DNA from: Fulvivirga marina
Lineage (GTDB): Bacteria > Bacteroidota > Bacteroidia > Cytophagales > Cyclobacteriaceae
Direction: 5' to 3'
Assembly: GCF_016775155.1 (NCBI RefSeq)
Contig: NZ_JAEUGD010000031.1
Location: 248,001-312,000, forward strand
DNA length: 64,000 nt
Position numbers and translations under genes: made by a program. The notes under the pieces are model-generated. The model did not search any database. It saw nothing but the letters and a program-made list of their open reading frames with translations, and had not been told where the DNA came from. Shown piece after piece: positions 37,611 to 57,641 of the stretch (its first letter is position 1; each line of letters begins with the position of its first letter).

Positions 37611-38585
37611 TTAGTTCTCCACATTATCATTAATTTTTTGGTTGGGATTCCAATCTTTGAATATCTTTTCTAAAGTAAATTTCCCGAGTTCATCTGCATT
37701 CAGCTGGTGGGACCATTCCACTCGCTCACCCTTTGTTGCTCCAAGGCCTGATGAATTATATTCGGCATAGAAAGTTGTACTTTCTGCCTCAGGTTTGGTC
37801 CAATTGTGCCACCCTTTAGGCTTTATGTGCTTGCCCATTTCACAATTGATAAATACGGTTTGAGCATATGGACGCCAGGGTCTGCCGAGGTACACACTTT
37901 GATCGGGAGCATTCCCTGTTAATTTGCAGTTGATAAATACAAACCCGTAGTCCGCAGTTTGCTCTGTAGATGCCGCAGTGATGTAGCTACCTCCTTTTTT
38001 TGAAAATATCACGCAGTTCTCAAACACGGCCGTTGACCATCCGAAAATGAAATCTGTAGTGCCTTCAATGTAACAGTCTTTATAATATTGTCTGCTATTT
38101 TTACCATGAGGGTAAAGAGTATCCTGAAAGCCCAGAAAGCGGCAGTTTTCAAATATCACCTTATCTCCATCGATACGTACTGCCACAGCCTGCCCTACAG
38201 GGCCTGAGGAATTTTCGAAGGTAATATTACGTGCTGTAAAGCCCTCTCCAAAAACAAAGAAGCCTGATGACCCTGAGGTACCTATTTCTTCTCCAAATCT
38301 GTTGGTCTTTGATGCGTAATCGTCATAGGTGATGATGGTCTTGCTGACGTCTTCCCCTATGAAAGTAACATTGGTTTTGGAGGCTGGAAGGATCAGTTTT
38401 TCCTTATACCGCCCACTTTTAATCAGGATGCGGGTTTCATTCTTTCTCAAATCGGGCACCGAATTGATCGCTTCTTGTATGGTTTTGAAATCACCACTTC
38501 CATCGCCAGATACAACAAAATCGTAATCTGCTCCAAATAGGGATGCAGAGACAAATAAAAAAAAGCTGTTAAGGATCAATTTCAT
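37611..38585 (-). CDS. pectin methylesterase (CE8)
   Basis: A 324-residue exported beta-helix enzyme (signal peptide 1-19). It removes methyl esters from homogalacturonan, opening it to pectate lyases. Visible motifs are GSSGFFVFGEGF, QAVAVRIDG (Gln132), GFQDTLY (acid/base Asp155), DFIFG (nucleophile Asp178) and LGRPWRPYAQ. Length is normal. It is packed tightly: 3 nt after the GH105 gene and 7 nt before the GH43 gene. Confidence 0.95.
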   Translation of the reverse strand: MKLILNSFFLFVSASLFGADYDFVVSGDGSGDFKTIQEAINSVPDLRKNETRILIKSGRYKEKLILPASKTNVTFIGEDVSKTIITYDDYASKTNRFGEEIGTSGSSGFFVFGEGFTARNITFENSSGPVGQAVAVRIDGDKVIFENCRFLGFQDTLYPHGKNSRQYYKDCYIEGTTDFIFGWSTAVFENCVIFSKKGGSYITAASTEQTADYGFVFINCKLTGNAPDQSVYLGRPWRPYAQTVFINCEMGKHIKPKGWHNWTKPEAESTTFYAEYNSSGLGATKGERVEWSHQLNADELGKFTLEKIFKDWNPNQKINDNVEN

Positions 38586-38588
38586 TTC

Positions 38589-39935
38589 TTACTGGCCTTT
38601 TACAACTTTATCATACTCCAGAGAGGCCATAATAAATGGACCAACGGCTTTAGGATCGTTATCTCGTTTTTTCTCGTTGATGTAGTACTCGTAAGTACCA
38701 CTTCTATAAGGATCACCTCCAAGACCTGCTACCGCACATACCTGGGTTATGCTAATGGCACCGTCAGGCTCCGTTTTGATGAGATTTTTAAGCAGCCCTT
38801 GGTAAGCCTTTTTTCCATTTTCGGCAAACTCCTGATCCAGATACCCTTTCTCAACACCCTTTAATAAAAAGTAAGCAAACATGGATGACGCCGATGCTTC
38901 GAGGTAATTACCCTCCTTACTTCCCATATTCACCACTTGGTACCACAAGCCAGTAGAATCCTGAAACTTGACAAGGCCAGCAGCCATTTTATTGGCAATA
39001 TCCGTGATCATTTGCCGTTTGGAATGATCTTCAGGTATATAATCCAATACATCAACCAAAGCCATGGCAAACCAGCCCATACCACGCCCCCAGAAATTTG
39101 GAGAGAGTCCGGTTTCCTTATCAGCCCACTGCTGTTCCCTGCTTTCATCCCAGCCATGGTAGTAAAGTCCGGTTTCAGGATCATAAGCATATTTATCGAT
39201 CAGGTAGATCTGGTTAGCAACATCATCAAAAAGTGCAGGTTCATCAAAACTTTCGGCATATTTGGCCAGAAATGGCGATCCCATATAGATACCGTCAAGC
39301 CACATTTGATGTGGATATCTCTTCTTATGCCAAAAGCCACCTTCGCTAGTACGTGGATGCTCCTTCATCTGATCCCTCAATGTCTGAATAGCCTTCTTGT
39401 AATTTTCTTTACCTGTTTCTTTGTAAAGATCTATAAGAAATTTGCCCGGGTTTACTCTATCGATATTGTAGTCGCTTTGTTTATAGGTTTTTATCTGACC
39501 TTCAGCATTGATCATGGAGTCTGCATAAGCCACAGCATAGTTGTAATAAGCTTTATCACCTGTGGCGTTCCAAAGCTTCAGAAAGGCTGTACAAACGAGG
39601 CCATTGGTGTATTCCCATTTAGGCTTTGGCCTGAAATCCAGGTATTGTGGATCAGGGGTTCTTTTTATTTCCGAATTTGCCATTCTTACGGCTATTTCCA
39701 CTCCACTGGCATTTGAGCTTACAGTAGTCGCAGGAATCTCGGCTTTAACCTCCTCTGTAGCTTTTCCATCCTTTTGACCGGAACAAGCTGCTAGTAAAAT
39801 TCCCGATAATAAAATGATAGCCATGGGGCTAAACAGCCTGGCGTCGCAAATTGAACACGATTTGCTGCCTTGGGGTAGAACATTACATTCTTTCTGCATA
39901 AGTTGTTTTTTTCTGTTTTTTGATATTTCTATCAC
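38589..39935 (-). CDS. GH105 unsaturated rhamnogalacturonyl/galacturonyl hydrolase, lipoprotein
   Basis: An (alpha/alpha)6-barrel enzyme of about 448 residues that cleaves the unsaturated uronic acid left by pectate lyases. Family stretches: LKLWNATGDKAYYNYAVAYA, GGFWHKKRYPHQMWLDGIYM, NFWGRGMGWFAMALVDVLDY. A lipobox LLAAC lies about 51 residues from the GTG at 39935, which shares bases with the stop of the lyase gene (GTGA). The ATG at 39899 would shorten the leader and is the alternative. Lipidation puts it on the membrane facing the periplasm or outside. Confidence 0.9.
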   Translation of the reverse strand: MIEISKNRKKQLMQKECNVLPQGSKSCSICDARLFSPMAIILLSGILLAACSGQKDGKATEEVKAEIPATTVSSNASGVEIAVRMANSEIKRTPDPQYLDFRPKPKWEYTNGLVCTAFLKLWNATGDKAYYNYAVAYADSMINAEGQIKTYKQSDYNIDRVNPGKFLIDLYKETGKENYKKAIQTLRDQMKEHPRTSEGGFWHKKRYPHQMWLDGIYMGSPFLAKYAESFDEPALFDDVANQIYLIDKYAYDPETGLYYHGWDESREQQWADKETGLSPNFWGRGMGWFAMALVDVLDYIPEDHSKRQMITDIANKMAAGLVKFQDSTGLWYQVVNMGSKEGNYLEASASSMFAYFLLKGVEKGYLDQEFAENGKKAYQGLLKNLIKTEPDGAISITQVCAVAGLGGDPYRSGTYEYYINEKKRDNDPKAVGPFIMASLEYDKVVKGQ

Positions 39936-41254
39936 TTGACTATTTGGTTTAAGTAAACTTCTATGTTGGTGTACGATTTATCCAGGCTATACTCAGTGGC
40001 ATCATGACCATCTTCGGGGTTTAAGCCTTGTTTGGCTTCCCATTTATCGGGCATTCCATCTTTATCAGTATCCCCAGGAGCTTTTTTTGCCTTGAGCTCT
40101 GGCCATCCTCCTACATCTTTTTGAGAGTCAATAATGCCATTGCTAATGCCCGCGGTGCCTTTTCTCACCTCTTCTACAATTCTCTTATCCACGGCATCCC
40201 TGCAATGACTGGCTCCTGCCTGGGAAAGCACGGTTTCATAGGCCTCTTCAGCTGTTTGCATAGCTATGGGTATAGTTTCAAAAGGCACTTCTACTTTGGT
40301 ACTTTCTGGGTTCTCGCATTGTATGCCTCCTGCCCAATTATTATAGGTTACCTGTTCACTCCCTTCCACATAATTTCCATGCACAAAAAACTTCCCGTAG
40401 GGTTCGCTGGGGTTTACTATTCTTTCTTTTATAGTGTGTTTGGTGGCCGGACCTGGTTTATAATAATTGTTCACCATGTTATAACTCCCCTTTTCACCTC
40501 CATATACACTGTTATAACCCCAGTTATAAATTACATTGTTTCTAAAGTCAGTAAGTTCTCCCGGACTATTGGGTGTGGTAGAAGACCCACTGAACCGAGG
40601 GTTACGACTGCTATGGTGCGCCAAAAGGTTATGATGGAAAGTGGCTTTCTCTCCACCCCATATTCCGCCATAACCATGGGCTCCTTTCTTGTGAACGGAA
40701 TTACTTAAACTTTCAGAAATAATGCACCACTGCATTGTAAAGTCAGAATTCCTATAAAAAGAGGCACATTCATCGGTTGACCAGCTAATTGAGCAATGAT
40801 CAACGATAACATTTTTAGTTCCTCTTCCTTTGAAAGCATCGTCTTCGACATGCTTCTCATCTCCTAACCTGAAGCGCATATAGCGGATAATCACGTTATC
40901 AGCACTAACCCTTACCGGGTAGTTTTTGACGCATATACCATCTCCCTGTGCAGACTGCCCTGCTATGGTGATATCTCCGTTATCTACAGGCAGGACAGAG
41001 TCAAGCGAAATATTGCCGGAAACAGCGAAGGTAATAATACGAGGGCCTTTGGCTTCAATAGCTTCTCGCAGACTTCCAGGGCCTGAGTCGTTCAGGTTGG
41101 TTACGATTAAAATCCGGCCTCCACGCCCTCCTGTAGTATACTTCCCAAAGCCTTCCGCTCCCGGAAATGCCAGCTGCTGGGCATTTAATGAAAGGGCCGA
41201 TAAAATCCCTGTAAAGAAAACTGTTGTCAATACTTTTGATACACCCCAATTCAT
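39932..41254 (-). CDS. pectate lyase (PL1 family), secreted
   Basis: A 440-residue exported beta-helix lyase (signal peptide 1-25). It begins FPGAEGFGKYTTGGRGGRIL, the start of PL1-type Bacteroidetes lyases, and carries DHCSISWSTDECASFY, GGIWGGEKATFHHNLLAHHS and SRNPRFSG (catalytic Arg region). The C-terminus (PGDTDKDGMPDKWEAKQGLN) is a short calcium-binding-type repeat. It cuts demethylated pectin by beta-elimination and leaves unsaturated ends, the substrate of the GH105 enzyme that follows. The gene at 41328 is a paralogue. Confidence 0.92.
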   Translation of the reverse strand: MNWGVSKVLTTVFFTGILSALSLNAQQLAFPGAEGFGKYTTGGRGGRILIVTNLNDSGPGSLREAIEAKGPRIITFAVSGNISLDSVLPVDNGDITIAGQSAQGDGICVKNYPVRVSADNVIIRYMRFRLGDEKHVEDDAFKGRGTKNVIVDHCSISWSTDECASFYRNSDFTMQWCIISESLSNSVHKKGAHGYGGIWGGEKATFHHNLLAHHSSRNPRFSGSSTTPNSPGELTDFRNNVIYNWGYNSVYGGEKGSYNMVNNYYKPGPATKHTIKERIVNPSEPYGKFFVHGNYVEGSEQVTYNNWAGGIQCENPESTKVEVPFETIPIAMQTAEEAYETVLSQAGASHCRDAVDKRIVEEVRKGTAGISNGIIDSQKDVGGWPELKAKKAPGDTDKDGMPDKWEAKQGLNPEDGHDATEYSLDKSYTNIEVYLNQIVK

Positions 41255-41300
41255 CTATGCTGCCTTTTCTAAAACATTTACTTTATAGAAGCTTGCTTAT

Positions 41301-41322
41301 CTGGAGGCAGTAGTGCCTCCAG
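41301..41322. other. intercistronic stem-loop between two lyase genes
   Basis: ctggaggca (41301-41309), loop gtag, tgcctccag (41314-41322): a perfect 9-bp stem, 6 nt past the stop of the upstream lyase gene. There is no T-run on the minus strand after it, so it may be a processing or stability hairpin rather than a terminator. Confidence 0.5.
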
Positions 41323-41327
41323 TTTAT

Positions 41328-42848
41328 TTATTTCTGTCCTTCAATAATCTCTGAAACCAAACTGTTTAAATAAACTTCTATGTTTTCGTAGCCTGTACTT
41401 AAATCATGACCGTTAGCTTCAAATTTTGAGGGATCCAGTCCCATTTGAGCTTTCCATGCATCAGGAATTCCATCTCCTGAAGTATCTAATGGAGCATCTT
41501 TGGAGTTCAACACTGGCCATCCCCCCACATCACTTTGGGTATCAATGATACCGTTGGTGCTACCATTAGAACCTTCGTAGGTATAACTTCCATTTTTGAC
41601 ATCATTAATAATATGCTCATCCACTGCATCTCTTACCAAAGACATACCTCCATAAGTCAACACTTTTTCATAGGCTATTTCAGCAGTATGAGTATTAACA
41701 TTGTTATTTATATCGAGTGGGATACTTAATCGCATGTTTTTTTTGTCCTCTTCCGAGACCGTACCATAGCTTCCATGGAAGTGGGGGTAAACCCCGTAAG
41801 TCCAATTATCGTTGGTAGCTTGTGTACGGCCGTGTACGTAGTTGCCATCAATAAAAAATTTACCCCAGATATCATATACATCCGTGCCTTCTACCTTATT
41901 CTTATCAATGGCTACAATTCGATCATTTTTAGAATCCGAAGTAGCGGAACCGGCTTTGTAGTAGCAGTTAACAATATTGACATTCATGGCTTCTCCTCCA
42001 TAGGTACTGTTTCCGCCCCAGTTATAAAGCACATTGTTTCTTAGATCAACCAGATCTGTAAGAGCGAAGGCATCTCCTCCTGTCTCTCCCAACCTTGGGT
42101 TCCGGCTATCATGGTGTGCTAGCAGGTTGTGATGAAATGAAGCATACTTGCCTCCCCAGATACCTCCATAACCATGGGAGCCTTTATCGTGAACAGAATT
42201 CCTCAGACTTTCTCCTATGATACACCATTGAACTGTGGTATTCTCATTGGCATAAAACGATACACATTCGTCTGTTGACCAACTCATGGAGCAGTGGTCA
42301 ACAATGATATTTTTATGGAAGCGTCCACCCAAAGCATCCCCCTCTGCCTGGGCCTCATCTCCCATCCTAAACCTGACGAAACGAATAATTACATTGTCAG
42401 CAGCGACAGATACAGGATAATTTTTAAGGGTAATTCCATCTCCCGGGGCTGTTTGTCCTGCTATGGTCAGATCTCCATTGCGTATTTTCAGTTCCGAGTT
42501 CAGAGCGATCGTTCCTGAGACTTTAAAGAGTACATATCTAGGGCCACTTGCCTCGATGGCCGCTCTTAAACTTCCCACCCCGGCATCATTCAGGTTAGTC
42601 ACATAGAATACTTTACCTCCTCTGCCTCCGGTAGTGTTCCTCCCAAAACCTTCGGCTCCTTCAAAAGCATAAGCTGCTTCATTTACCGGAAGTGAATCCT
42701 GTACTTCGACAGTGGTATCAGGCTCTGTAACGGAGGTAGTATCCAACCTCGTGTCTGGTCCCAGATCAGAATCGTCACTTCCACAATTGACAAGAAAAAT
42801 GAAAAAAGACAGGGCGAAAAACAAGTATAGTTTATTGAATGATCTCAT
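41328..42848 (-). CDS. pectate lyase (PL1 family), lipoprotein
   Basis: A 506-residue paralogue of the next gene. A lipobox (LVNCGSDD) and a Thr/Asp/Glu-rich linker (about 23-55) tether the lyase to the membrane, probably at the cell surface. The catalytic part has the same blocks: FEGAEGFGRNTTGGRGGKVF, DHCSMSWSTDECVSFY, GGIWGGKYASFHHNLLAHHD, SRNPRLGE. An extra loop at about 300-380 (DKNKVEGTDVYDIWGKFFID, WTYGVYPHFHGSYGTVSEED) sets it apart. A surface-tethered and a secreted lyase together suggest outside cutting followed by periplasmic work. Confidence 0.92.
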   Translation of the reverse strand: MRSFNKLYLFFALSFFIFLVNCGSDDSDLGPDTRLDTTSVTEPDTTVEVQDSLPVNEAAYAFEGAEGFGRNTTGGRGGKVFYVTNLNDAGVGSLRAAIEASGPRYVLFKVSGTIALNSELKIRNGDLTIAGQTAPGDGITLKNYPVSVAADNVIIRFVRFRMGDEAQAEGDALGGRFHKNIIVDHCSMSWSTDECVSFYANENTTVQWCIIGESLRNSVHDKGSHGYGGIWGGKYASFHHNLLAHHDSRNPRLGETGGDAFALTDLVDLRNNVLYNWGGNSTYGGEAMNVNIVNCYYKAGSATSDSKNDRIVAIDKNKVEGTDVYDIWGKFFIDGNYVHGRTQATNDNWTYGVYPHFHGSYGTVSEEDKKNMRLSIPLDINNNVNTHTAEIAYEKVLTYGGMSLVRDAVDEHIINDVKNGSYTYEGSNGSTNGIIDTQSDVGGWPVLNSKDAPLDTSGDGIPDAWKAQMGLDPSKFEANGHDLSTGYENIEVYLNSLVSEIIEGQK

Positions 42849-42904
42849 AGAGTGTGTAATAATTTTAGAGTGACCTAACTAATAAAAAGCCTATTGACAA
42901 TTAT

Positions 42905-42953
42905 GAAAAAGAAGAAAATTTGAGGTGCAACCCTTGTCAAAAGGCCGCACCTC
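42905..42953 (-). terminator. rho-independent terminator after the SusCD-lipoprotein genes
   Basis: On the minus strand GAGGTGC (42953-42947) pairs with GCACCTC (42928-42922), with inner CCTT/AAGG pairing, and a T-rich tract follows (42921-42905). It separates the glycan-binding genes from the enzyme genes, so enzyme expression is by readthrough or from a further promoter at about 42850-42900. Confidence 0.7.
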
Positions 42954-42979
42954 GTACATATGAAGAAGAAAAAATCAAA

Positions 42980-44620
42980 CTATAGTCCTGGCCTCCACCT
43001 GGGATCTCCTGCACTGTTCGCTGCCGAAAACGCTCTATCCTTTATGTTGTAATTAACATTCTCCCTGTCTTCCCAAAGATCATCTGCTGTACCACTGTAT
43101 ATAAATGACGGGAAGCCCGCTATGTCATTTGATGCAAAAGAAAAGTCAGAAGTACTCCAGGTGTTAATGATATCAAAGGTAGTGGACCCCAAGCCTTGAA
43201 CACCTTTGACTGCATAAACTTCGGAGCCACTCATGTCCCAGCCGGGTCCCCAAATAGTGTTATGGATTTTTATACCTCCAGTCACATTATCATTGCCCGC
43301 TGTTCCTCTCCACCTGAACATCTGTCGTCCTGCTTCCGGAGCCTGATCAATAGTACAACTCTCTATAGTGATGGAACCAGAATTTGATCTGCTTGCCAGA
43401 AAGTATTGACATTTTGAGAATGTAGAGTTTTGCAACAGAATATCTCCGGCAGTCCACCCGTCTGTATCAACATAAAATACTGCATATCCATTAATACTGT
43501 CTACTACGGAATTCACTATAGAATACTTGTCTATGGTACCAATACCGCCCTTAATACGGGTAATACCTCGCTGAGAATGGATTTGACATCCATCAAATTT
43601 AATTTCTCCTATGGTACCTGATACAGAAATATTGAATATATAGCTTCCGGAAAAATCTCCATGGATGGCTACATTTTTAAATACCAATGAATCTATATTG
43701 GCTCCATCAACTATATCAAAATTGCCACTTGCAGAATTGATTTTTGGCAAGGCAGGTGTAAAACCATAACCACTTACGATAAGTACAGAACTATTAAAAT
43801 TATACCCATTGGCCTGATACACCCTTCCGGGCTCCACAATCACTACGGCACCATCTTCAATATCGCCGAGTGTATCTGCCAGAATATTCTCATTTTCAAC
43901 CCCTGAAAGGTCATAGACAGGACGATCCCCAAAATCCAAAGATGGCTTAGTGGTATATATTTCCCATCCTCTGAGGGTCTCACCTGAGTAAATTGCAACC
44001 TGATATGTGGTGCTAGGAGTTAAACTATTGACAATTGCCTCATTGGCATCAATCTGACCTTGAGTTAAATTAATTTCAAATAATGGATTTTCAAGCCGGA
44101 GATCATTAGCTGCGTATACTTTCACCCCATCAATTAAATCTCCGGAGGTGGACCAGAATACTCTGGCCCTGGTATCTGTGACATCAAACTGAAGGTTAGG
44201 TACGCCTTGATTTGAGGGGTATTTTTGTGTCCTTACTGATCCCAGGTCAGATACCTTACTATCGTACTGTGCGTCTAGGGCATGAGCCGTGGCCCGAACC
44301 TGATAGATGGTGTACCATAGCAACTCTTCGCCTACAGACACTTCATTGATCTCGACATAGCTGGTATCCGAATCAAATGTATAGTCTATTGTTTTAAATG
44401 TATCACGGCTTACCTCTAGTGTATAAGAAACGGCTTCCTTGAGTTTACCTATGTCTGCAATGATTGTATTGCCTTCTGAATACAGTTTTTCATTCAGAAC
44501 CGGTCTGAACAACCTTGTTTTTTCAAATACCTCCTCATCATCTTTACAAGCAAAAATTGACAGCATGCCCAATAGGAGAATACCCGATGTTTTATAAATA
44601 TTTGACTTGATACTTTTCAT
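42980..44620 (-). CDS. surface lipoprotein with FN3-like and beta-helix (DUF4957/DUF5123-type) domains
   Basis: A 546-residue lipoprotein from ATG 44620 (an upstream start would overlap susD). Lipobox IFACKDDEE. Two Ig/FN3-like domains (about 45-235; AVSYTLEVSRDTFKTIDYTF, VPNLQFDVTDTRARVFWSTS) precede a right-handed beta-helix (about 240-546; IKFDGCQIHSQRGITRIKGG, ITIESCTIDQAPEAGRQMFR). Proteins of this build follow susCD in pectin loci and are thought to bind pectin at the surface. No catalytic motif is visible. It lies 22 nt after susD, in the same transcript. Confidence 0.8.
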   Translation of the reverse strand: MKSIKSNIYKTSGILLLGMLSIFACKDDEEVFEKTRLFRPVLNEKLYSEGNTIIADIGKLKEAVSYTLEVSRDTFKTIDYTFDSDTSYVEINEVSVGEELLWYTIYQVRATAHALDAQYDSKVSDLGSVRTQKYPSNQGVPNLQFDVTDTRARVFWSTSGDLIDGVKVYAANDLRLENPLFEINLTQGQIDANEAIVNSLTPSTTYQVAIYSGETLRGWEIYTTKPSLDFGDRPVYDLSGVENENILADTLGDIEDGAVVIVEPGRVYQANGYNFNSSVLIVSGYGFTPALPKINSASGNFDIVDGANIDSLVFKNVAIHGDFSGSYIFNISVSGTIGEIKFDGCQIHSQRGITRIKGGIGTIDKYSIVNSVVDSINGYAVFYVDTDGWTAGDILLQNSTFSKCQYFLASRSNSGSITIESCTIDQAPEAGRQMFRWRGTAGNDNVTGGIKIHNTIWGPGWDMSGSEVYAVKGVQGLGSTTFDIINTWSTSDFSFASNDIAGFPSFIYSGTADDLWEDRENVNYNIKDRAFSAANSAGDPRWRPGL

Positions 44621-44642
44621 TGTATAATCTTTTAAGTTCTTA

Positions 44643-46442
44643 TTAGAAGCCATAGCCATCGTTTTGCAATACCCCCTGGCTATTGTCTATACCAATGGTT
44701 GGTATCGGGAAGATATAGCGAACAGGTTGTGTGTACCTAGCCCAATCCCTGGTGATCCACTCCTCGTAACTACCAGGCTGATTTAAATCAATCATGGCCT
44801 CAATCCAGTCCATTTGTCTCCAGTTATCGATATCGGGCGGAGCAGCTTTGGTATATAGGTCGTAGATGACCAAGGTTCCATCCGGTTCATTCCTTACATA
44901 CAGATACTGTGGTAGTTCACCACTGTCTACCTCATCCACCATTTTTTTCAACCCTGCAACAGTCTCCTGCACCTTTTCGGCATAAAGGTTCCAACGAATA
45001 AGCTCATATTTTCTGATCATTTCGCCCCCAAACTCCCAGGCTCTTTCATCCACAATGGCATCGAAAAACGACTCTTTGCTAGCTGAAACAGTATTGATAT
45101 AACTGTCAACTTTCTCCGTCCATACTGAATCCGGGAAAGCTCTTTGTCTTACCCTACGCAGCATTTCCTGCGCTTGCCCTGTTGGTCCATTCAGTTCGTT
45201 TTCAGCTTCTGCGTACATCAGTAAAACATCAGCATACCGCATCATGGGCCAGTTAATACCTGTTCCCTTTGAAGTGTTTGATCCTGGTGCTTTCTCTAAA
45301 TAGGCCCGGCTCCATTTACCTTGAGAAATACCCTTATCATTGAGACTTACCAATTCCTGGGGTTCCAAATCATCTTTAGTCGGGGTTTCGTTAGGGTACT
45401 TATAAAGAGCACAGGTTACATCTCTTCGCTGATCTGCCCCATCAAAAGAATAGAAGTAAGTAAGCGGTATTTTCATGTAGTTATTCCCTGATCCATAAGG
45501 CCCGCTATAAACTCCGACACCTATATTCCAGCCTACATCACCTTCGCCAATGGCAAAAGGCACTTCAAAAAGTACATCCGCATTAACAGGATTTATAAAT
45601 TTTGACTGATTTAAGAAGACTTGTCGGTAATCTTGAGGCAATTCGCGGTCTTTGAGCTGTATCAGTTTAGAAGTAAATTGACGTGCCGTATCATAATAGG
45701 CCAAGTAGTCCGAAGCTCTATCCATGGTCATGTCCGGTTTCAAAAACCAACCTCCTCTTTGTAAAGACAAGCGGGCGATCATTCCCAACGTGTATTCACG
45801 GTTTACCTGCTCGATGCCATAGGGTGCTTCATCAGCCCAATACATACCGCTCTCTGCTTCGACCATATCATGGATCACGGAAGATAGGATTACATTACGA
45901 TCCTCTTTAGGTTTATTAAATTCCACACCTACTTTAGGAGCCTCTTTTACAAAAGGCACATCACCAAAGTAGAAGATCAGCATGCTATACCAGTAAGCGC
46001 GCAAGGTGTATGCCTCCCCCAGCAGGTGACTCATATCAGCAGCAAGCACATGGTCATCTGACTTGTAAGCATCGCTGGCCAGGATACCCTCTATAGCTAT
46101 ATTGGCATCCCTGATAGCTTTGTATCCAATATCCCACACATAATCAAGATCGCCATTGTTTTCCTGAGCATTAAGGTCCCAAATTTGGTAACGGGCTCCG
46201 TCTTTACCCCAACCACTGCTATGCTCAATATCAGTATTCCCGGTCATATTATTTGATAAACGCGACCTGAAACCATCGTGACTGAAATGTACATAAATGG
46301 CATTTACACCTCTTCGTGCATCCTCCGCATTTGAGAACACATATTCACTATCAAAGGTTGACAGCGAGTCCGGTTCCAGATAGTCTTCGCAAGAGGTTGC
46401 TATCAAGGTTACCACACTCAATATTAAATATCTAAATTTCAT
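44643..46442 (-). CDS. SusD/RagB-type glycan-binding lipoprotein
   Basis: A 599-residue outer-membrane lipoprotein (lipobox ATSCEDYLEPDSL). SusD features: an N-terminal TPR-type helical core (AEDARRGVNAIYVHFSHDGF, LLGEAYTLRAYWYSMLIFYFGDVPF) and a C-terminal part with RYADVLLMYAEAENELNG and ERAWEFGGEMIRKYELIRWN. It forms the lid of the SusC channel and binds pectin fragments. It follows susC after 23 nt. Assignment is secure. Confidence 0.95.
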   Translation of the reverse strand: MKFRYLILSVVTLIATSCEDYLEPDSLSTFDSEYVFSNAEDARRGVNAIYVHFSHDGFRSRLSNNMTGNTDIEHSSGWGKDGARYQIWDLNAQENNGDLDYVWDIGYKAIRDANIAIEGILASDAYKSDDHVLAADMSHLLGEAYTLRAYWYSMLIFYFGDVPFVKEAPKVGVEFNKPKEDRNVILSSVIHDMVEAESGMYWADEAPYGIEQVNREYTLGMIARLSLQRGGWFLKPDMTMDRASDYLAYYDTARQFTSKLIQLKDRELPQDYRQVFLNQSKFINPVNADVLFEVPFAIGEGDVGWNIGVGVYSGPYGSGNNYMKIPLTYFYSFDGADQRRDVTCALYKYPNETPTKDDLEPQELVSLNDKGISQGKWSRAYLEKAPGSNTSKGTGINWPMMRYADVLLMYAEAENELNGPTGQAQEMLRRVRQRAFPDSVWTEKVDSYINTVSASKESFFDAIVDERAWEFGGEMIRKYELIRWNLYAEKVQETVAGLKKMVDEVDSGELPQYLYVRNEPDGTLVIYDLYTKAAPPDIDNWRQMDWIEAMIDLNQPGSYEEWITRDWARYTQPVRYIFPIPTIGIDNSQGVLQNDGYGF

Positions 46443-46465
46443 ATCTCTTTAAATTTTTGCGACAG

Positions 46466-49400
46466 TTAAAAAGTAATATTCACACCTACTGTATATGATC
46501 TGCTTCTGGGATATGATGAGTAGTCAACACCAGGGGTCAACGCAGAATAAGTGCTACTTCTTGTGGTGCTCACCTCAGGGTCAAAACCTGAATAGTTGGT
46601 CCATAGCGCCAAGTTATAGCCTGTTGCATATACCCTGACCTGAGACATTTTGACTTTAGAAATCAGATTAGCGGGTAATGAATAACCAAGAGTTAATGTA
46701 TTGAGCCTGATAAAAGACCCGTCTTCAACCGCCCAGTCTGTAAGCACTGCGGTTGCTGTACCAAACGAATTATTACCACTCCAGATACTCTTGCCCTGGT
46801 TCAGCGTTCTCAGTTGTTCAAGGTCTGTCACTACTTCTCCCGGAGTGCCTGTGTACGAGCCGTCCACATCAATGTAAGTAAAACGATTATCAGGCCCCAT
46901 GGTATTCAGCATGTTACCATAAGTGGTACGGTAGTTTTGATTATACTCAATTTTTCCGGTGTTATAGATGTCATTACCATAAGACCAGTTGAAGAATATA
47001 GAGGCATCAAAACCTTTATACCTGGCATTAAAACCAAAACCTCCCTGTGCTTTAGGAAGTGCATTGCCTATTACCTTTCTATCATCACTATTGATCTCTC
47101 CGTTTCCATCCACATCTTTTATTTTCATATAGCCGGGTCTCAAAGCATTCACTCCAATGGTACCACTATTGTCCACTACTCCCTCCTTAAGTATATAGGT
47201 ATCAGTTGCTTCATCATATCTCTCAAAGTCATCGACCGTGTACATGCCATCGTTTTCATAACCATATATCAAACCGATGGTCTCTCCAACCCTTAAAAGG
47301 AAATCGTTTCTGTCTTTCAGGTCAGTGCTGGCCCAATTAGACTGAAAAAACCTTTCATCCGTACCATCCAGAGCTTCGATCTTTCCTCTGTTCAGTCCAA
47401 AGTTAACGTTAGCGGATAGAGAGAACTCATTGTTATCAATGATATAACCTTCCAGTCCTAATTCAACACCACGGTTGGAGGTGCTTCCAATGTTGTCCCA
47501 CTGCGTTTTGAACCCTGAAATTGGTGAGATTGCCTTATCCAGCAAAAGGTCATTGGTAGTATTGTAGTATGCATCAAAACTACCGGTGATCCTTGCTTTG
47601 AAAAGGGAGAAGTCAATACCTGCATTTCTACTTACGGTTGTTTCCCAGATCAGGAATGGATTATACAGTACCTTCGAAGAAGGTGAATAATAGGTATTGT
47701 ACTCGTTACCAAACCCAGGGCCATTGTCGTTGGAAGGTGAAAAAAGGAATCTTGATGCTGTTCTGTCGACTTTATCGTTACCAATCTCGCCATAGCTCAC
47801 CCTTAACTTCAGCTGATCTACGAAAGTCACTCCAGACATAAATGCCTCTTCAGAAACCTTCCACCCCAGGGCTACGGCAGGGAAGAACCCAACACGGTTA
47901 CCCTTAGCAAATTTGCTGTTGGCGTCTCTTCTGAAAGTAGCAGTCAATAAAAAACGATCATCCCATTGGTAATTAACTCTACCAAAAAATGAAAGTTTGT
48001 TGTCCTCGGTAAACTCTTCGGATGAGTAGAATAGCTGTCCTTCGCCCAGTTGCATATTGGCAAACATTTCTTCCGGAGTTATAGATATTCTAAACTCTTC
48101 CTGACGTACAAAGGAGCTTTTACCTCCGTTTGAATTAATCTCCTGACCTACCAAAAGATCCAGCTTGTGGCGGCCCAGATCTTTAAAGTTGTACCCTACG
48201 GTATTATACCATCTGTATGACCAGTTTTGTCGTTCTTCTATGGTTCCCAAAGGCAAACTACTTCCTTCCTTTTGAGACTCTCCGGTCAGTGGCCCATAGA
48301 ACCTGAGTCTTTCTCTGAACTTGCTTTGACCATTAGCCACGGTGGTAAAGGTGAGGTTATTGGTAGCTTTCCAGGTCAACCCGGCATTAAAAGCATAATT
48401 TTTATCTGTCTGCTTGCGCCAGTCTTGCTCAGCCAACTCAGTTGGGTTGATCATACTCAGCAGAAATGACTGGTAATCATCACTGGCATCGATTGCATTA
48501 AGGTCTATATCAAGTTCGTCGGCAATACCATTGACAGGACGCGTAGCAATGGCATCTTTAACGCGGAGCTGAGAGCTCCCTGATGTCCCCGATCCGTTTG
48601 TAATTGAATAAGTTATTCTTGACCCAAAATCAAATGACAGCTTATCGGAAATATTTTGATTCAACTTCAGGTTTGCAACGTTTCTTTCATACCCGGAGCC
48701 GGAGATCAGGCCATCTTCATTGTTATTGGTAAGGCTGAGGGAAATCCTGGTATTCTCAGAACCACCACTAAGGCTGACATTATGATACTGAGAGAACTGG
48801 CCACCACCAAAAAGCTCATCCTGCCAATCAGTTCCTTGTTTTCTTTTATACAATTCAAGGTCATCGTACTTACCAAAATACTTTTCAAAGTTTTCAACAT
48901 CGGCTTCAGACTTTAGCTTGGCTGTTTCATAGTTGGCCATTACATAGTCATAAGGAGACAAAACTTCATATTTCCGGTTTTCCGGCAGGTGTTTGTATTT
49001 ACCGAAGCCATTATAATTAACCGATACTCTTCCTGCCTTTGGCTTTTTGGTGTTGATGATGATCACACCATTAGCAGCACTGGCACCGTAAATGGCTGTT
49101 GCTGCCGCATCTTTCAGTACGTCTATACTGGCTATGTCCGTGGGCGGGATATCTCGTATACTGCTCATAATAAAGCCATCCACTACGTATAAAGGAGAGT
49201 TATCCTGGGTTACGGACCCTCCTCCTCTAACACGGATTACTATTTCAGCATCGGGCGAGCCATCGGTAGTCTGCACCCTAACTCCAGGCAAACGGCCGGT
49301 AATAGCTTCCGCTGCACTAGCTACTGGTATTTTTTGTAAGGTTTCGGCTGAGACTGAAGCCACCGATCCGGTAAGGTCAGATCTCTTCATAGTCCCATAG

Positions 49401-49759
49401 CCAACATCTACAATTTCCACTTCGGCCAGCTGTGTGACATCCTCTTCCATCGTAATGTTAAATGATGTCTGGTTTCCAACGCTTACCTCCTGGGCTTTCA
49501 TACCAATAAAAGAAAATACCAGCACAGCATCTTCTTTCACATTAATTTTAAATGCGCCACCTATATCGGTGACCGTACCATTGGAAGTACCCTTTTCAAT
49601 AACGGATACACCCGGTAACATCTCACCATCTGCGGCCTTAACTGTTCCGGTGACGGTAACGCCGCTTTGTGCGTAACCGCTAACAGAGCCAAAAATGGCT
49701 ATGCCTGTAAGGACCAGAGCTGTTAATGAATTCTTAAATAGGAGAGTAGTTTTACTCAT
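46466..49759 (-). CDS. SusC/RagA-type TonB-dependent outer-membrane transporter
   Basis: A 1097-residue protein: signal peptide (about 1-30), carboxypeptidase-D-like domain (GTVKAADGEMLPGVSVIEKG), TonB box region (VEIVDVGYGTMKRSDLTGSV), plug (VASAAEAITGRLPGVRV, SPLYVVDGF, SIDVLKDAAATAIYGASAAN) and a 22-strand barrel ending YPRSRSYTVGVNITF with a C-terminal Phe. It imports pectin oligosaccharides with SusD. It is the first gene of the pectin locus and starts 40 nt from a LacI-type operator. Confidence 0.95.
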   Translation of the reverse strand: MSKTTLLFKNSLTALVLTGIAIFGSVSGYAQSGVTVTGTVKAADGEMLPGVSVIEKGTSNGTVTDIGGAFKINVKEDAVLVFSFIGMKAQEVSVGNQTSFNITMEEDVTQLAEVEIVDVGYGTMKRSDLTGSVASVSAETLQKIPVASAAEAITGRLPGVRVQTTDGSPDAEIVIRVRGGGSVTQDNSPLYVVDGFIMSSIRDIPPTDIASIDVLKDAAATAIYGASAANGVIIINTKKPKAGRVSVNYNGFGKYKHLPENRKYEVLSPYDYVMANYETAKLKSEADVENFEKYFGKYDDLELYKRKQGTDWQDELFGGGQFSQYHNVSLSGGSENTRISLSLTNNNEDGLISGSGYERNVANLKLNQNISDKLSFDFGSRITYSITNGSGTSGSSQLRVKDAIATRPVNGIADELDIDLNAIDASDDYQSFLLSMINPTELAEQDWRKQTDKNYAFNAGLTWKATNNLTFTTVANGQSKFRERLRFYGPLTGESQKEGSSLPLGTIEERQNWSYRWYNTVGYNFKDLGRHKLDLLVGQEINSNGGKSSFVRQEEFRISITPEEMFANMQLGEGQLFYSSEEFTEDNKLSFFGRVNYQWDDRFLLTATFRRDANSKFAKGNRVGFFPAVALGWKVSEEAFMSGVTFVDQLKLRVSYGEIGNDKVDRTASRFLFSPSNDNGPGFGNEYNTYYSPSSKVLYNPFLIWETTVSRNAGIDFSLFKARITGSFDAYYNTTNDLLLDKAISPISGFKTQWDNIGSTSNRGVELGLEGYIIDNNEFSLSANVNFGLNRGKIEALDGTDERFFQSNWASTDLKDRNDFLLRVGETIGLIYGYENDGMYTVDDFERYDEATDTYILKEGVVDNSGTIGVNALRPGYMKIKDVDGNGEINSDDRKVIGNALPKAQGGFGFNARYKGFDASIFFNWSYGNDIYNTGKIEYNQNYRTTYGNMLNTMGPDNRFTYIDVDGSYTGTPGEVVTDLEQLRTLNQGKSIWSGNNSFGTATAVLTDWAVEDGSFIRLNTLTLGYSLPANLISKVKMSQVRVYATGYNLALWTNYSGFDPEVSTTRSSTYSALTPGVDYSSYPRSRSYTVGVNITF

Positions 49760-52269: not shown

Positions 52270-52896
52270 TCAGTCTAGAGCGTTTTCTAAATCTTGTGGA
52301 AGCATCTTCGGGTTGAGCAAGTCCTTTACTTTATAAGCCACAACCGGTTGGCAGTTGCCATGCAGAGCAACACGGATATGGGCATTCAGTCTTTCACTGA
52401 TATTTGCTTTTTCAGCCCACGCTCCTCGTTTTGCCAAATCCAGCGAGGTTGCCGGATATGGTCCGTACCTCAACTCTGTAAGCACCAAAAAGAACTTCTG
52501 ATCATCGCTCAAATTATGGTTTCTCCAGTCTTCGAATGGGCCCCTATAATCAGGAAGGTCGGCCTGATAGTCTTTGGCGTAGGAGTGTTTGAGGCTACTC
52601 AAGGCAGCATTCCAGGAAGCCCTCGCTGCAGGATACAGTTCCTTAAGTTCCGAAGGCAGGCTTCCATATCTGGACTTAATTTCATTGAGATCATCAATAA
52701 TCCTCCCAGTAGCATGTTCATTGAAGATTTTAACTCCAAAGTCACAATCAGAATACCCTGTAGTTACCGCCTTATGATCTGGTGTCCCCGATTGGCTATT
52801 GGGTGGTCTCCCCCCTGAAGATTGATCATTTACTTTACAGCTACCCCAAGGTAGTATGATGCATATGACTAAAAGGAATTTCAAAGATCTCTTCAT
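52270..52896 (-). CDS. lipoprotein of unknown function
   Basis: A 208-residue lipoprotein from ATG 52896 (upstream ATG at 52932 adds 12 residues before the signal). Signal MKRSLKFLLVICIILPWGSC, so Cys20 should carry the lipid. A Ser/Gly/Pro-rich linker (SSGGRPPNSQSGTPDHK) leads to a helical domain with Trp and Tyr (LPSELKELYPAARASWNAAL, LVLTELRYGPYPATSLDLAK). No family recognised. It stands alone on the minus strand, divergent from the peptide precursor gene. Confidence 0.6.
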   Translation of the reverse strand: MKRSLKFLLVICIILPWGSCKVNDQSSGGRPPNSQSGTPDHKAVTTGYSDCDFGVKIFNEHATGRIIDDLNEIKSRYGSLPSELKELYPAARASWNAALSSLKHSYAKDYQADLPDYRGPFEDWRNHNLSDDQKFFLVLTELRYGPYPATSLDLAKRGAWAEKANISERLNAHIRVALHGNCQPVVAYKVKDLLNPKMLPQDLENALD

Positions 52897-53328
52897 GATC
52901 TGAATTTTATAGGTGAAATTGACTATTACCAATTTAGCACTTCTATTTTTAATTATTCAAGGTAGCGTTGCGAAGAAACAAACTACTCAACACCCGGATC
53001 AAAATCCAAACTCTATTCATCTGACTGACCGTACCATCTTTTAAGAAAGCTATCAGGAAAGGGCCCTTTTTAGTTTTACCTCACTAAAGCACATTATGGT
53101 ACGGGTATTTTGGGTAACGCGCAAATTGTAAATAGACCACAAAAGTGTAGACATTCGCTTTTAACACCATACTTTTTTGTGCTATAGCATAGGTTTGTAC
53201 TTGGATTTCGTGCAACAATAAAGTATTTTAAAACTAAATAAACCACTGATCAGAAAGCAGAGTTTGGAGAGCGAAGCATGCAAAAGTTAAAACAATAGTG
53301 CAAGTATAATTACAAAACCAAAAGACTG
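52897..53328. other. divergent promoter region of lipoprotein and peptide precursor
   Basis: About 430 AT-rich nt. TAGGTTTG at 53190-53197 fits the Bacteroidetes -7 consensus on the plus strand and would give a leader of about 125 nt before the precursor gene. No other gene or repeat was found. Confidence 0.4.
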
Positions 53329-53514
53329 ATGAAAAAACATAATCTAAACCTGAACGCCTTAAAAGTACAAAGCTTTATAACCAACCTTAATGACCAGGAT
53401 GCCCATACCATCTATGGTGGTGCAACCATTGAGTCCTGTATTATATGCGAAGAGCCGGCCCCGACCGTTGGCTGTCCGGTTGAAACTTTCTACACCGCTT
53501 GTGGAAAGTGCTAA
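53329..53514 (+). CDS. GG-leader peptide precursor, class I lanthipeptide-like
   Basis: A 61-residue precursor. The leader (MKKHNLNLNALKVQSFITNL, then NDQDAHTIYGG) has the LNxLKVQSFxTxL pattern of Bacteroidetes natural-product precursors of the pinensin-type lanthipeptide group and ends in Gly-Gly at 30-31. The core of 30 residues is rich in Cys (37, 40, 49, 58, 61) and has five Ser/Thr (33, 36, 46, 53, 56), so five thioether rings are possible on paper. Dehydratase, cyclase and peptidase-transporter genes are not in the window. It lies alone, about 830 nt before a sensor kinase on the same strand. The leader match is strong; modification is inferred. Confidence 0.8.
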   Translation: MKKHNLNLNALKVQSFITNLNDQDAHTIYGGATIESCIICEEPAPTVGCPVETFYTACGKC

Positions 53515-54055
53515 GATTTTAAGGCAATTCGGTTTGAAGAGAACCATCCTGAAAAAGGATCTGATTTCAAGCTCTTTTTCAATTAACTCCTGAAAGAGAG
53601 ATGGAAAGAAACGGTCGGGGATTTCATGCAAAAGCTGATCTGTAACTTCAATAGTTTTGAGAGAAAAGCCTTTCGCCTTATCAAAAAAGAATATTGGTTC
53701 TCCTATAGATTTAGAGATGTGACACCTCATTATATCCCTTGTTTTATACACAAATAACTGCAAGTGATCGATAAGGTATTTACAAGAAGTGCTACGAAAG
53801 TGATAATCTATACAATTAATGGGTTTATCCACTACACATACCAAACCTAAACAAAGGTGCTGAAGAACCATCCCTCCATTTTATTGACCTAAAGCTCTTT
53901 TGAGGCTCTTTATAAGAGTTTAGCAACAATACACTATCCGCTTGACTATGGTTTAGTTTGTGAAAATCGCACCCCAATATTAACCTTTCAGGTGAAATAA
54001 CCTGAGCATTTGCAAATGTTGCAACAACCGTAAAAAACATAAACAGAACTCTCAT
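53359..54055 (-). pseudogene. possible frameshifted gene for an exported protein
   Basis: On the minus strand, ATG 54055 opens a frame of 76 codons with a good signal peptide (MRVLFMFFTVVATFANA), then a polar segment (SPERLILGCDFHKLNHSQAD) and a stop at 53825. A second minus frame is open from 53871 to 53359 and looks protein-like as far as about 53520 (IEVTDQLLHEIPDRFFPSLF, QELIEKELEIRSFFRMVLFK); beyond that it runs antisense through the peptide precursor. One frameshift near 53830-53870 would join them. It may be a decayed gene. Alternatively only the first 76 codons (53825-54055) are real, as a small exported protein. Confidence 0.35.
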
Positions 54056-54344: not shown

Positions 54345-57300
54345 ATGAGCAAAATATACCATATCATATATTTATTGCTTGCTTGTATTCAGGCAACGAC
54401 TTCCATGGCTCAGTTTTCGCTGGAAAAAATCAAATTCAGCAGACCTAATGAAAGCACCAAGCTTTATAACTCCACCATTACTTCTATTTTGCAGGATTCG
54501 CGAGGGTTCATGTGGATAGGTACATCGGATGGGTTGAACCGGTTCGATGGCTATGAATACACCGTATATCGCAACAACTCTAACGACTCTAGTACACTAC
54601 TACGAAATTCGATTCTAAGCCTTTACGAAGATAGTGAAGGCTTGCTTTGGGTGAGCACCTCCAACGGCGGCCTGCATACCTACGACCGGGAGCAGGACAG
54701 CTTCAGCCGTATTGAAGCTTATTCGTACAACTGCGAGGTCAGTCAGATCACAGAAGATGCTGACAATAATCTCTGGATTGCAGGTATACAATGGCCCACA
54801 GCCTTTGCTGCAAAGCTCGACCGTACCACAGGAGAGTGGCTGCATTACAATATCTTTTCTTCAAAAACCACAATATCTGCTTTCATCCCCGAGACTGAAA
54901 ATATTTTTTGGTTAGGGGTAAATAGTACGGGCTTTTTCAAATGGAATGCAAATGACAACTCAACCATAAGTTATCAACCGGATGACTCGGACCCCAACAG
55001 TATTATTAGCAAAGATTTTCATCAAGCCATCAAAGATACCCGGGGAAACATCTGGATAGCTACAAAGCATGGACTGAGCAAAATGGAAACTTCCACTGAT
55101 AACTTCACGAACTATACCGTACAATCCGGTGATCCGTCAACCGGCCTACGTGTAAACAATATTCTCACCCTTTGCCAGGACGAAAATTATATCTGGATCG
55201 GAACCGAAAATGGAGGGCTTAGCCGGCTTGATACCCGGACCAACAAAATCAGAACATTTATCAACAACAAATATGACGAGAGTTCGGTGGTTGATAATTC
55301 CATACACGCACTTTACAGAGACTTACATGGTCGCATCTGGGTAGGTACTTATTCCAGAGGACTATGTGTATATGACAAATTAAAATACAAGTTTTCTGAG
55401 CTAGATGTTCACCTGGAAAATAATGTTGTCAATGCAATCAGGCAGGATTCGAAAAAACGTATTTGGATTGGCACTGAAGACGGTGTTGTAATGAAAGACC
55501 GGGATAAGACACAACATTTTCCACATGTAAGTCCCAAAGACGGGTTTAGCACCGATCCGGTAATATGTATCTATGAAGATAGGCAACATCAAATGTGGTT
55601 TGGTACGTGGGGCAAGGGAGTAAGCCGGTATGATGAGAAAAAGGGTAGGTTTATCAATTACTTCCCGGATCAAAATGACCCCGGAAGCCTTTCTGATCCC
55701 AATGTATTTTCTATCCATGAGGAATCTCGAAAGCACCGGATGCTCTTAGGCACCTATGGAGGAATCAATGTACTGACAGACAAGAATAAAGGCATTTTCA
55801 AAAAACACACCACAGATATTGAGGTTAACAATTACATCCGTACGATATACGAAGACAGCCGGCAGACCATTTGGGTAGGCACCATAGATGAACTAACCTG
55901 GTTTAACCCCGATACGGGCGAAATAACCCGATTCGGAGAGCATCTAAACAATGGTACCGAGCTGGTAGGCGGGCTGGTGGGCTGCATTACCGAAGACCGA
56001 AAAGGACGAGTCTGGGTGGGAACCACTGAGGGCTTACACCTGATCATTGATAATGAGTTTATAAAAAAGTATACTACAGAACAAGGACTCTCCAACAATG
56101 TTATCAACGGCATACTTGAAGATGACAACGGCAACCTCTGGCTAAGTACCAATGATGGCATTGTCCGGTTTAACCCTGAAAACAATTCTTTTAAGCAGTA
56201 TGATACCAGCGATGGCTTGCTAAGCAATAACTTTAAATCTAACTCCTGTTTTAAAAACCAAGAGGGGTGGCTGTTTTTCGGAGGTACGGGAGTGAATGTA
56301 TTCCATCCGGACAGTCTCAAGGATAACCCGCATACTCCACCCGTTTACATTACAGACCTAAAGCTTTTTAACCGTACCGTCTCCATTGGAGATGACACCA
56401 AAATACTGAAGCACAGCATTACGGAAACCCGGGAAATCTCTTTACCCCATAAATACAATTTCTTTTCTATCAATTATGTCGGTCTTAATTACACATCAAC
56501 CAATAAAAATAAGTATGCCTACAAGCTGGAAGGCTTTGACAGGGACTGGAACTACGTAGAAGACCAGCGTACGGCTACCTTCACCAACCTGGATGCAGGC
56601 ACATACACTTTCAAAGTAAAAGCCTGCAACAATGATCAACTTTGGAATGAAGAGGGGGCTGCGTTAATTATTAACATATTGCCTGCCTGGTGGCAAACCT
56701 GGTGGGCAAAGCTGATTGGTGCTAGCTTGTTGATAGGTGCTACTATTCTGTATTATAGAATTAGAATGAGTAGCATCAAAAAACGCAACAGGCTACTAAA
56801 AATAATGGTGGATGAAAGGACAAAAGCGCTTGTTGCCAGTCAACGTACCATTGAAGAGCAGAATGAAGAGATAAAACAACAGAATGAATGGCTGGAAAGT
56901 GAAGTAAAAAGCCGGACAAAGGTCCTGGTAGATTATAGTCAACAGTTGGAGCAATTCACATTCCTGGCGGCTCATAACCTGCGCGCACCCATTGCCAGAA
57001 TACTGGGCCTCGGCCGACTGCTAAAGCTAACCGAAGGTAACAATATCGAAGAAACAAAGGAGATATCAAACAAGCTTGTGAAAGCCACCAAAGAATGTGA
57101 CCAGGTGGTAAAAGATCTCTCACTTATCCTGGACATTAAGAAAAACAATACCTCTATAATCAGTAATATTAATATCAGTGAAGAGCTGGAATTAATAAAA
57201 GTACACCTGGACAAGGAAATTGAGGAGACCCACACCAGGTTTGAAGAGGACTTTTCTGCTTGCCTAAGCATCAATACAGTTAAGCCTTACTTTGAAAGTA

Positions 57301-57641
57301 TTTTGATCAACCTCATTAGCAATGCCATAAAATACAGGCACCCGGACAGGGCGCCTGTAATTAAAGTTAGTACTGAGGTCAAAGGAGATTATATATGCCT
57401 GTCAATAACTGACAATGGCATTGGAATTGATCTTTCCATGGCTGGAGACAAACTCTTCACTTTGTATTCTCAGTTCCATGAACATGCTCAGGGAAAAGGC
57501 ATGGGGTTGTACCTCGTCAAAACACAAGCCGTTACGCTTGGCGGCTATGTCGAAGTAGACAGCGAAGAGGACAAAGGCACAACTTTCCGCGTGTACTTCA
57601 AAGCCAAACAGAAAGTAAAAGAAAAACATACGCCTCTTTGA
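54345..57641 (+). CDS. propeller sensor histidine kinase (two-component, no receiver)
   Basis: A 1098-residue membrane kinase. Signal peptide (1-22); a two-component regulator propeller of many WIGT/DGLNRF-type repeats (about 30-690; DSRGFMWIGTSDGLNRFDGY, GRVWVGTTEGLHLIID); a Y_Y_Y domain (about 715-780; YKLEGFDRDWNYVED); one TM helix (787-805); coiled coil (815-865); and a histidine-kinase core with phospho-site His877 in FLAAHNLRAPIARILG and ATP-site boxes SNAIKYRHPDR, TDNGIGID and GKGMGLYLV. It ends after the ATPase domain: no receiver and no AraC HTH, so it is not a complete hybrid sensor of the Bacteroides type. A separate regulator must exist, and none is adjacent. Signal unknown; the pectin locus has its own LacI regulator. 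Confidence 0.9.
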   Translation: MSKIYHIIYLLLACIQATTSMAQFSLEKIKFSRPNESTKLYNSTITSILQDSRGFMWIGTSDGLNRFDGYEYTVYRNNSNDSSTLLRNSILSLYEDSEGLLWVSTSNGGLHTYDREQDSFSRIEAYSYNCEVSQITEDADNNLWIAGIQWPTAFAAKLDRTTGEWLHYNIFSSKTTISAFIPETENIFWLGVNSTGFFKWNANDNSTISYQPDDSDPNSIISKDFHQAIKDTRGNIWIATKHGLSKMETSTDNFTNYTVQSGDPSTGLRVNNILTLCQDENYIWIGTENGGLSRLDTRTNKIRTFINNKYDESSVVDNSIHALYRDLHGRIWVGTYSRGLCVYDKLKYKFSELDVHLENNVVNAIRQDSKKRIWIGTEDGVVMKDRDKTQHFPHVSPKDGFSTDPVICIYEDRQHQMWFGTWGKGVSRYDEKKGRFINYFPDQNDPGSLSDPNVFSIHEESRKHRMLLGTYGGINVLTDKNKGIFKKHTTDIEVNNYIRTIYEDSRQTIWVGTIDELTWFNPDTGEITRFGEHLNNGTELVGGLVGCITEDRKGRVWVGTTEGLHLIIDNEFIKKYTTEQGLSNNVINGILEDDNGNLWLSTNDGIVRFNPENNSFKQYDTSDGLLSNNFKSNSCFKNQEGWLFFGGTGVNVFHPDSLKDNPHTPPVYITDLKLFNRTVSIGDDTKILKHSITETREISLPHKYNFFSINYVGLNYTSTNKNKYAYKLEGFDRDWNYVEDQRTATFTNLDAGTYTFKVKACNNDQLWNEEGAALIINILPAWWQTWWAKLIGASLLIGATILYYRIRMSSIKKRNRLLKIMVDERTKALVASQRTIEEQNEEIKQQNEWLESEVKSRTKVLVDYSQQLEQFTFLAAHNLRAPIARILGLGRLLKLTEGNNIEETKEISNKLVKATKECDQVVKDLSLILDIKKNNTSIISNINISEELELIKVHLDKEIEETHTRFEEDFSACLSINTVKPYFESILINLISNAIKYRHPDRAPVIKVSTEVKGDYICLSITDNGIGIDLSMAGDKLFTLYSQFHEHAQGKGMGLYLVKTQAVTLGGYVEVDSEEDKGTTFRVYFKAKQKVKEKHTPL

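Follow-up and report, generated by a model that had tools for sequence, protein, structure and literature searches.

At positions 53329-53514 (+) of the window, i.e. the whole stretch of 64,000 nucleotides analysed here, lies a pinensin-type precursor gene, a frame of 61 aa that is intact from its start to its stop codon (53512-53514, +). It encodes a 31-aa leader peptide, MKKHNLNLNALKVQSFITNLNDQDAHTIYGG (53329..53421, +), whose residues 6-31 match the NF038180 leader_pinensin model and which ends in GG (53416-53421, +; cleavage predicted after 53421), followed by a 30-aa core peptide, ATIESCIICEEPAPTVGCPVETFYTACGKC (53422..53511, +), a predicted LanB/LanC substrate. An earlier, sequence-only reading had described a GG-leader, Cys-rich precursor at this place, with five Cys and five Ser/Thr in a core of 30 residues; the frame is present as described and the counts are borne out, with no Cys in the leader and with every Ser/Thr of the core preceding a Cys by 2-6 residues. 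In the NCBIfam search, NF038180 is the sole match of the peptide at E up to 1, with 37.9 bits over a cut-off of 24; no Pfam family matches the peptide, and neither the plasmid nor the phage collections that we queried with it returned a match. Of the precursor models that had been suggested for checking it, the lanthipeptide model is the one that recognises the leader, while the GG-Bacteroidales natural-product precursor model, which we take to be TIGR04149, gave no match at E up to 1. An HMM built from ten other leaders of the same genome, with the window gene excluded, scores it at 40.1 bits and the runner-up among the 1816 frames of the window at 6.1; of 2000 shuffles, 1495 received a score, the highest being 6.7 bits. 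As the NCBIfam score is well over its cut-off and the HMM score far above those of the other frames and the shuffles, a chance match is ruled out, and the window gene is a genuine peptide precursor. Its core is unlike the PTHT..C..C core of the pinensins, for which Chitinophaga sp. YR627 served as reference, and the gene is therefore a member of the leader family, not a pinensin.

Both neighbours of the gene lie outside the system. To the left, 52270..52896 (-) encodes a lipoprotein-like small protein with a lipobox recognised by eye, a DNA match in two sister species (G001 and G014) and nothing in Pfam at E up to 0.001, and to the right, 54345..57641 (+) encodes a propeller-type sensor histidine kinase (Pfam: Reg_prop, Y_Y_Y and HATPase_c). 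Elsewhere in the window we observe two adjacent 555-aa TPR proteins (21681-25386), whose weak sigma-70 region 4-like end stays under the Pfam cut-off and which are apparently tandem regulators, and a carbohydrate-use region (32635-49759) with a GDSL lipase, GH28, GH43, a SusD protein and, judged by eye, a large outer-membrane receptor-like protein. Bacteroidota promoters follow a -33/-7 pattern, which has one match in the window, away from the precursor, with a shuffle mean of 2.79; a lone TAGGTTTG seen by eye at 53190-53197 was not accepted as evidence of a promoter. Rfam gave no family over threshold on the whole window.

The gene had further been described as an orphan, with no LanB, LanC or C39 gene around it. 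This holds locally, as the genome's over-cut-off matches to these families sit on contigs C63 and C58 and the window on C25, but not genome-wide: in the 6.78 Mb of the host genome (G000), which by kinship belongs to the genus Fulvivirga, NF038180 scores over cut-off at 14 places on 10 contigs, and a LanB/LanC/C39 set is present on contigs other than that of the window. Some of the other precursors are found near the enzymes or the transporter and most are dispersed; most of the 14 leaders lie away from the enzymes, so that a precursor without enzymes beside it is nothing unusual here. Among 14 control genomes, none had an NF038180 match over cut-off, and weak matches (E up to 10) occurred in eight.

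For 12 precursors of the host genome, comprising 11 of the 14 over cut-off and one on C55 (17 bits, under cut-off), the mean pairwise identity is 50% in the leaders and 19% in the cores, the latter equal to that of shuffled cores (19%). In all 12, Cys are confined to the cores, which carry 2-9 of them each and contain Ser/Thr and Cys in similar numbers. Left out of this set were C63:1136953, which has no GG, and two broken family copies, one on C38 without an in-frame start and one on C1 without GG or a Cys core; a weak leader match at C63:1136747 is interrupted by a stop (TAG). Repeats with a spacing of ~230 bp and a run of unknown bases adjoin a precursor on C54 (L034:524-1480), and ~71 bp of the repeat unit are found again in locus L126 of G014. 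Five dispersed precursor regions, together with the central locus described below, are syntenic with G014. Fifteen precursor pairs from sister species (10 G000-G014 and 5 G001-G014), hand-picked by similarity and checked for position in part only, gave a pooled pN/pS of 0.064/0.50 in the leaders and 0.080/0.62 in the cores, a ratio of ~0.13 for both that we give raw because several pairs approach saturation at silent sites; four of these pairs begin a few codons upstream of the ATG and one (L018-L129) is divergent. Given the low pN/pS in the cores, the paired cores of the sister species look maintained, as would be expected under purifying selection.

The sequence-only reading had proposed a lanthipeptide-like precursor that uses enzymes from elsewhere in the genome, or else has another purpose, and had suggested a genome-wide search for LanB, LanC, a C39 transporter and further precursors, all of which are indeed present elsewhere; a leader-model match and modification genes, whose absence was to count against it, were both looked for and found. 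A search of the genome at E up to 0.01 gives a single match each for PF14028, the elimination part of LanB, and PF05147 (LANC_like), both on C63, and Peptidase_C39 has one match over cut-off, on C58, with a second one on C37 under cut-off (18.5 bits). The corresponding proteins score over cut-off for PF04738 (129.6 bits), PF14028 (155.9 bits) and LANC_like (204.8 bits), and the domains identified on the proteins of the system comprise Lant_dehydr_N, Lant_dehydr_C, LANC_like, HlyD, a LuxR-type response regulator, a TPR histidine kinase and a C39-ABC transporter. LanB is split into LanB-N and LanB-C, and LanC is a separate protein in which C287, C337 and H338, presumably the Zn ligands, are invariant in five sequences. 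The genome hence holds the class I enzymes, a LanB with its glutamylation and elimination parts and a separate LanC. A class II LanM was not found in it: the only LANC_like protein is this separate LanC, and the LanM model TIGR03897 reached 258.8 against a cut-off of 304, with an alignment restricted to positions 546-931 of the 932 in the model. The window gene, for its part, is not a LanA beside LanB and LanC, as it lies on C25, the enzymes on C63 and the transporter on C58.

G014, a relative from the same genus whose genome is complete, has in one stretch the transporter, no fewer than three precursors, a kinase/regulator, HlyD, LanB, LanB-C and LanC, and a fourth leader-like frame is also seen there. 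The outermost matching pieces of the C58 and C63 ends of the host genome lie ~140 bp apart there, so that its own central locus, to which the window gene does not belong, is probably continuous and was split in assembly. In G014 itself, lanC is spread over two frames that overlap (419 and 251 aa; L117:16005-17947), by a true frameshift or an error in sequencing, even though 21 leader matches are retained in this genome.

LanC proteins of this kind extend ~220-230 residues beyond the catalytic domain. A model of residues 426-651 of the Fulvivirga kasyanovii LanC (L185:6874-7551), built from 25 sequences, has a pLDDT of 89.6. Compared by VIA-align, it matches PqqD (5sxy; Z 8.6, 94 residues, 2.5 A), TbiB1 with its leader (5v1v; Z 8.6, 87 residues, 2.9 A), lasso B1 with its leader (6jx3; Z 8.2, 85 residues, 2.6 A), MccB (Z 8.2), NisB (Z 8.1) and MibB (Z 7.8), all placed on the last ~100 residues of LanC, where a Z near 8 can also reflect a common arrangement; higher scores were obtained for 3dee, a putative transcription regulator (Z 10.6, the top score), a TglHI chain (9.9) and 8hkr (9.4). 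Foldseek likewise led to PqqD, with a weak best E of 0.023 and a probability of 1.00, and the Pfam PqqD family matched 2 of the 25 members at E up to 1 (best E 2.1e-5). From the model, we take this C-terminal domain to have an RRE (PqqD-like) fold, which may bind the leader, and protein lengths suggest that such a domain is general in the pinensin-type LanC group, Chitinophaga and Pedobacter included.

Among 58 relatives (the host genome included), the leader was found in 13 and PF14028 (LanB-C) in 15, and all 13 fall within these 15; the two with a LanB and no leader are G024 and G055. At E up to 0.01, leader matches number 14 in the host genome, 22 in G001, 32 in G002, 21 in G014, 21 in G033 and 110 in G027, and seven further relatives have one each. 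Family-wide, with up to 20 candidates scored in each genome, the leader occurs in at least 21 of 390 genomes. A search of genome contigs with the LanB alignment returned 289 relatives, with F. kasyanovii and F. imtechensis among the names, of which the best 80 were kept, giving 76 loci; 49 of these were submitted and 48 named genomes searched for leaders at E up to 0.001. All but one of the 48 have a leader, 27 of them exactly one, the exception being an Acidobacteria MAG with LanB and zero leaders at this threshold. F. imtechensis has 31 leaders and F. kasyanovii 22 (strain JCM 16186), and high counts are also found in the Acidobacteriota MAG MO_135.B14 (44), a Cyclobacteriaceae MAG (40) and an Aminicenantes MAG (10), where contamination may play a part in the MAG counts.

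We placed 46 of the 48 named genomes and four further rows in a LanB tree, a quick one in which several long branches meet. On it, 6 changes are required to account for the 12 of 50 rows that have six precursors or more, no fewer than 4 of them being forced by the starred branches, and a single LanB origin of all many-precursor genomes was rejected on these grounds. A clade of 17 rows, including Chitinophaga sp. YR627, has single precursors only, and the LanB of the host genome belongs to a different subclade from the Chitinophaga-type LanB.

Both flanks of the window gene are conserved in G001 and G014, and the interval between them measures 1.4 kb here, ~8.7 kb in G014 and ~17 kb in G001. 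As the best leader match in the syntenic intervals of G014 and G001, at 7.8 bits (E 0.4), is not convincing, we rejected a positional ortholog of the window gene, and no other ortholog was found in these two genomes. The closest sequences to the window peptide are G014:C1:3088975 (49% identity over residues 1-55), which lies ~150 kb from the syntenic place, and G001:C324:17596 (50% over residues 1-46). With no leader in the syntenic intervals and the nearest relatives elsewhere, the window gene looks like a lineage-specific member of the family; since the alignments reach 15 to 24 residues into the core, its core and those of its nearest relatives may still have a distant common origin.

Upstream of many of the precursors we observe a structured RNA. 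The word AGTAGG occurs in 19 of 73 precursor upstream regions against 2 of 233 upstream regions of other genes, across several genomes, and Rfam identifies the element as DUF805b (RF02914), with 9 above-threshold matches among 20 hand-chosen loci, most of which were selected for carrying AGTAGG. In 20 genomes, with up to 150 candidates scored in each, 72 of the DUF805b matches listed reach 26 bits, and at least 24 of these, against 0.007 expected by a rough estimate, are followed by a leader match at a distance of 24-54 nt; the same holds for at least 14 of the 48 listed matches over the family cut-off. The 24 cases are a lower bound because only 113 leader matches were compared (14/14 of the host genome, 18/21 of G014, 18/22 of G001, 28/32 of G002, 16/21 of G033, 12/110 of G027 and 7/7 of the others). 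Examples are found at L060:1443-1477, L107:1666-1700(-), L061:1612-1644(-), L057:1433-1468 and, on the same contig as the window, G000:C25:208137-208169. All 14 control genomes had some DUF805b match at E up to 1, and none had one over cut-off. In 25 distinct copies, taken from 25 of 30 loci after exclusion of five weak matches, both helices of the pseudoknot keep their pairing through changes on both sides: the outer pair of helix 2 forms in 23 of 25 copies, in five standard pair types, and in helix 1 the innermost pair forms in 25 of 25, in three types, with a weaker fourth pair (19/25). The window gene itself has no DUF805b, as Rfam at 52900-53600 returned two chance-like sub-threshold matches, neither of them to this family.

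DUF805b is also found upstream of other small GG-type peptides. In two genomes it is followed by peptides of 33 and 36 aa with an HCSNCGHC end (L155 and L161), which look like another precursor family. It also precedes a family of proteins that look secreted, resemble one another at the start and measure 292-294 aa (L159, L162, L167, L168, L179 and L181), and the gene of one such ~293-aa protein lies between two precursors on C65 of the host genome. We found no literature on DUF805 as an RNA motif, judging by titles and the openings of abstracts. Its link to the precursors suggests for this orphan RNA a function that can be put to the test; if the link is true, the RNA would be a regulator of secreted peptide genes.

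With a probability of about 0.8, we read the window gene as a class I, pinensin-leader lanthipeptide precursor, one of a dispersed library that is modified in trans by a single distant machinery and exported by C39. Its leader would be recognised by RRE-type domains of the distant split LanB and of the fusion of LanC with a PqqD-like domain, the Ser/Thr of its core would be dehydrated and then joined to Cys as thioether rings, and the leader would be removed after GG, the product being exported by the C39 peptidase/ABC transporter and the HlyD adaptor of the central locus; within such a library, the leader would be common and the cores free to differ. Recognition in trans, ring formation, cleavage, export and a biological role are what we infer for this system. 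That the frame arose by chance, for example as the antisense of the longer, 170-aa frame at 53359-53871 (-), has a negligible probability in view of the HMM scores, which were obtained without the window gene and leave the next frame and the best shuffle far behind; that longer frame matches nothing in Pfam at E up to 0.001 and was rejected as a real gene.

The broken copies in the same genome (C63:1136747, C38 and C1) mean that the window gene could be inactive, and an unexpressed or decaying lineage-specific relic between two unrelated genes would also fit the lack of a convincing precursor at the syntenic position in G014 and G001 and of DUF805b upstream. We consider this unlikely, as the frame is intact, the leader and its GG are complete and match NF038180 well over cut-off, and each Ser/Thr is shortly followed by a Cys. 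Rather less probable still is that the peptide is exported by C39 with its Cys left as thiols or disulfides, in the style of unmodified double-glycine bacteriocins, and that LanB and LanC act only on the precursors borne by the cluster; a GG leader alone suffices for C39 processing, but the leader here is of the pinensin type, it occurs only where LanB-C does in the 13 leader-bearing genomes among the 58 relatives, and the cores carry Ser/Thr and Cys in similar numbers.

Beyond the window gene, the modified-in-trans library can be drawn more broadly, as a picture to which we give even odds: a promiscuous split-LanB/LanC-RRE set would serve from 14 to 110 dispersed precursors, with cores that are under selection in a repertoire that turns over between species; the layout would have been gained or lost several times in one LanB subclade (in Bacteroidota, and in Acidobacteriota and Aminicenantes if the MAGs are clean); and part of the library would stand under a shared 5'-UTR DUF805b pseudoknot. 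Leader-guided promiscuity is known mainly from the class II enzyme ProcM. Should the picture be true, there is in nature a class I system that modifies dozens of cores with no likeness to one another, with nothing but the leader as its guide, a property sought in LanB/LanC enzymes by peptide engineers. Mining centred on gene clusters would overlook the majority of the products: in the available text of PMC12565237, antiSMASH on F. kasyanovii 48LL gave two RiPP clusters among 16, as compared with the 22 leaders of strain JCM 16186.

Among known systems, pinensins A and B of Chitinophaga share with the present one the class I assignment, the GG leader of NF038180, the split LanB and a LanC of over 600 aa, as well as a C39-type start, recognised by eye, beside LanB in Chitinophaga sp. 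YR627. In contrast to the 14 mostly dispersed leaders found here, a single leader match was obtained in each of the examined genomes of Chitinophaga, Pedobacter and Chryseobacterium, and the precursor beside their LanB has, with the exception of L215, a PTHT..C..C-type core, whereas the cores here are Cys-rich and unrelated. YR627, which carries the pinensin core according to the available text of PMC9248904, has a precursor with an HPTHT core, unlike that of the window gene. Pedobacter lusitanus NL19 (PedA15 and others) likewise produces class I lanthipeptides within Bacteroidota and has several precursors in one strain. Cleavage of PedA15.2 by LahT150 is mentioned in the available text of PMC12328550. 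The RODEO survey, in its available text (PMC7268733), includes pinensin in class I family I 17 and notes the split LanB; its Bacteroidetes LxLxKx5L/GG leaders share with ours the leader style, the GG end and the C39 protease, but the precursors of which this text speaks lie inside gene clusters, and it describes no unclustered class I precursors, while most of those here are dispersed. By titles and the openings of abstracts, in a search whose coverage mostly stops short of subscription papers, we found no dispersed class I precursors in the literature, which hints that this layout may be new to it.

The closest likeness in layout is to the prochlorosins of the marine cyanobacteria Prochlorococcus and Synechococcus, in which the leader is conserved, the core hypervariable and the precursor genes partly remote. 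Both systems have many precursors for one modification set, 29 for one synthetase in the prochlorosins (available text of PMC12328550) and, here, 14 leaders on 10 contigs that would share one enzyme set, with leaders conserved and cores no more alike than shuffled ones. A prochlorosin-like layout in class I, with one machinery and many dispersed substrates, is our best reading. The prochlorosins are modified by a class II LanM, ProcM, whereas the system described here relies on class I enzymes, LanB and a separate LanC, and its host belongs to Bacteroidota, with high precursor counts also in Acidobacteriota and Aminicenantes MAGs.
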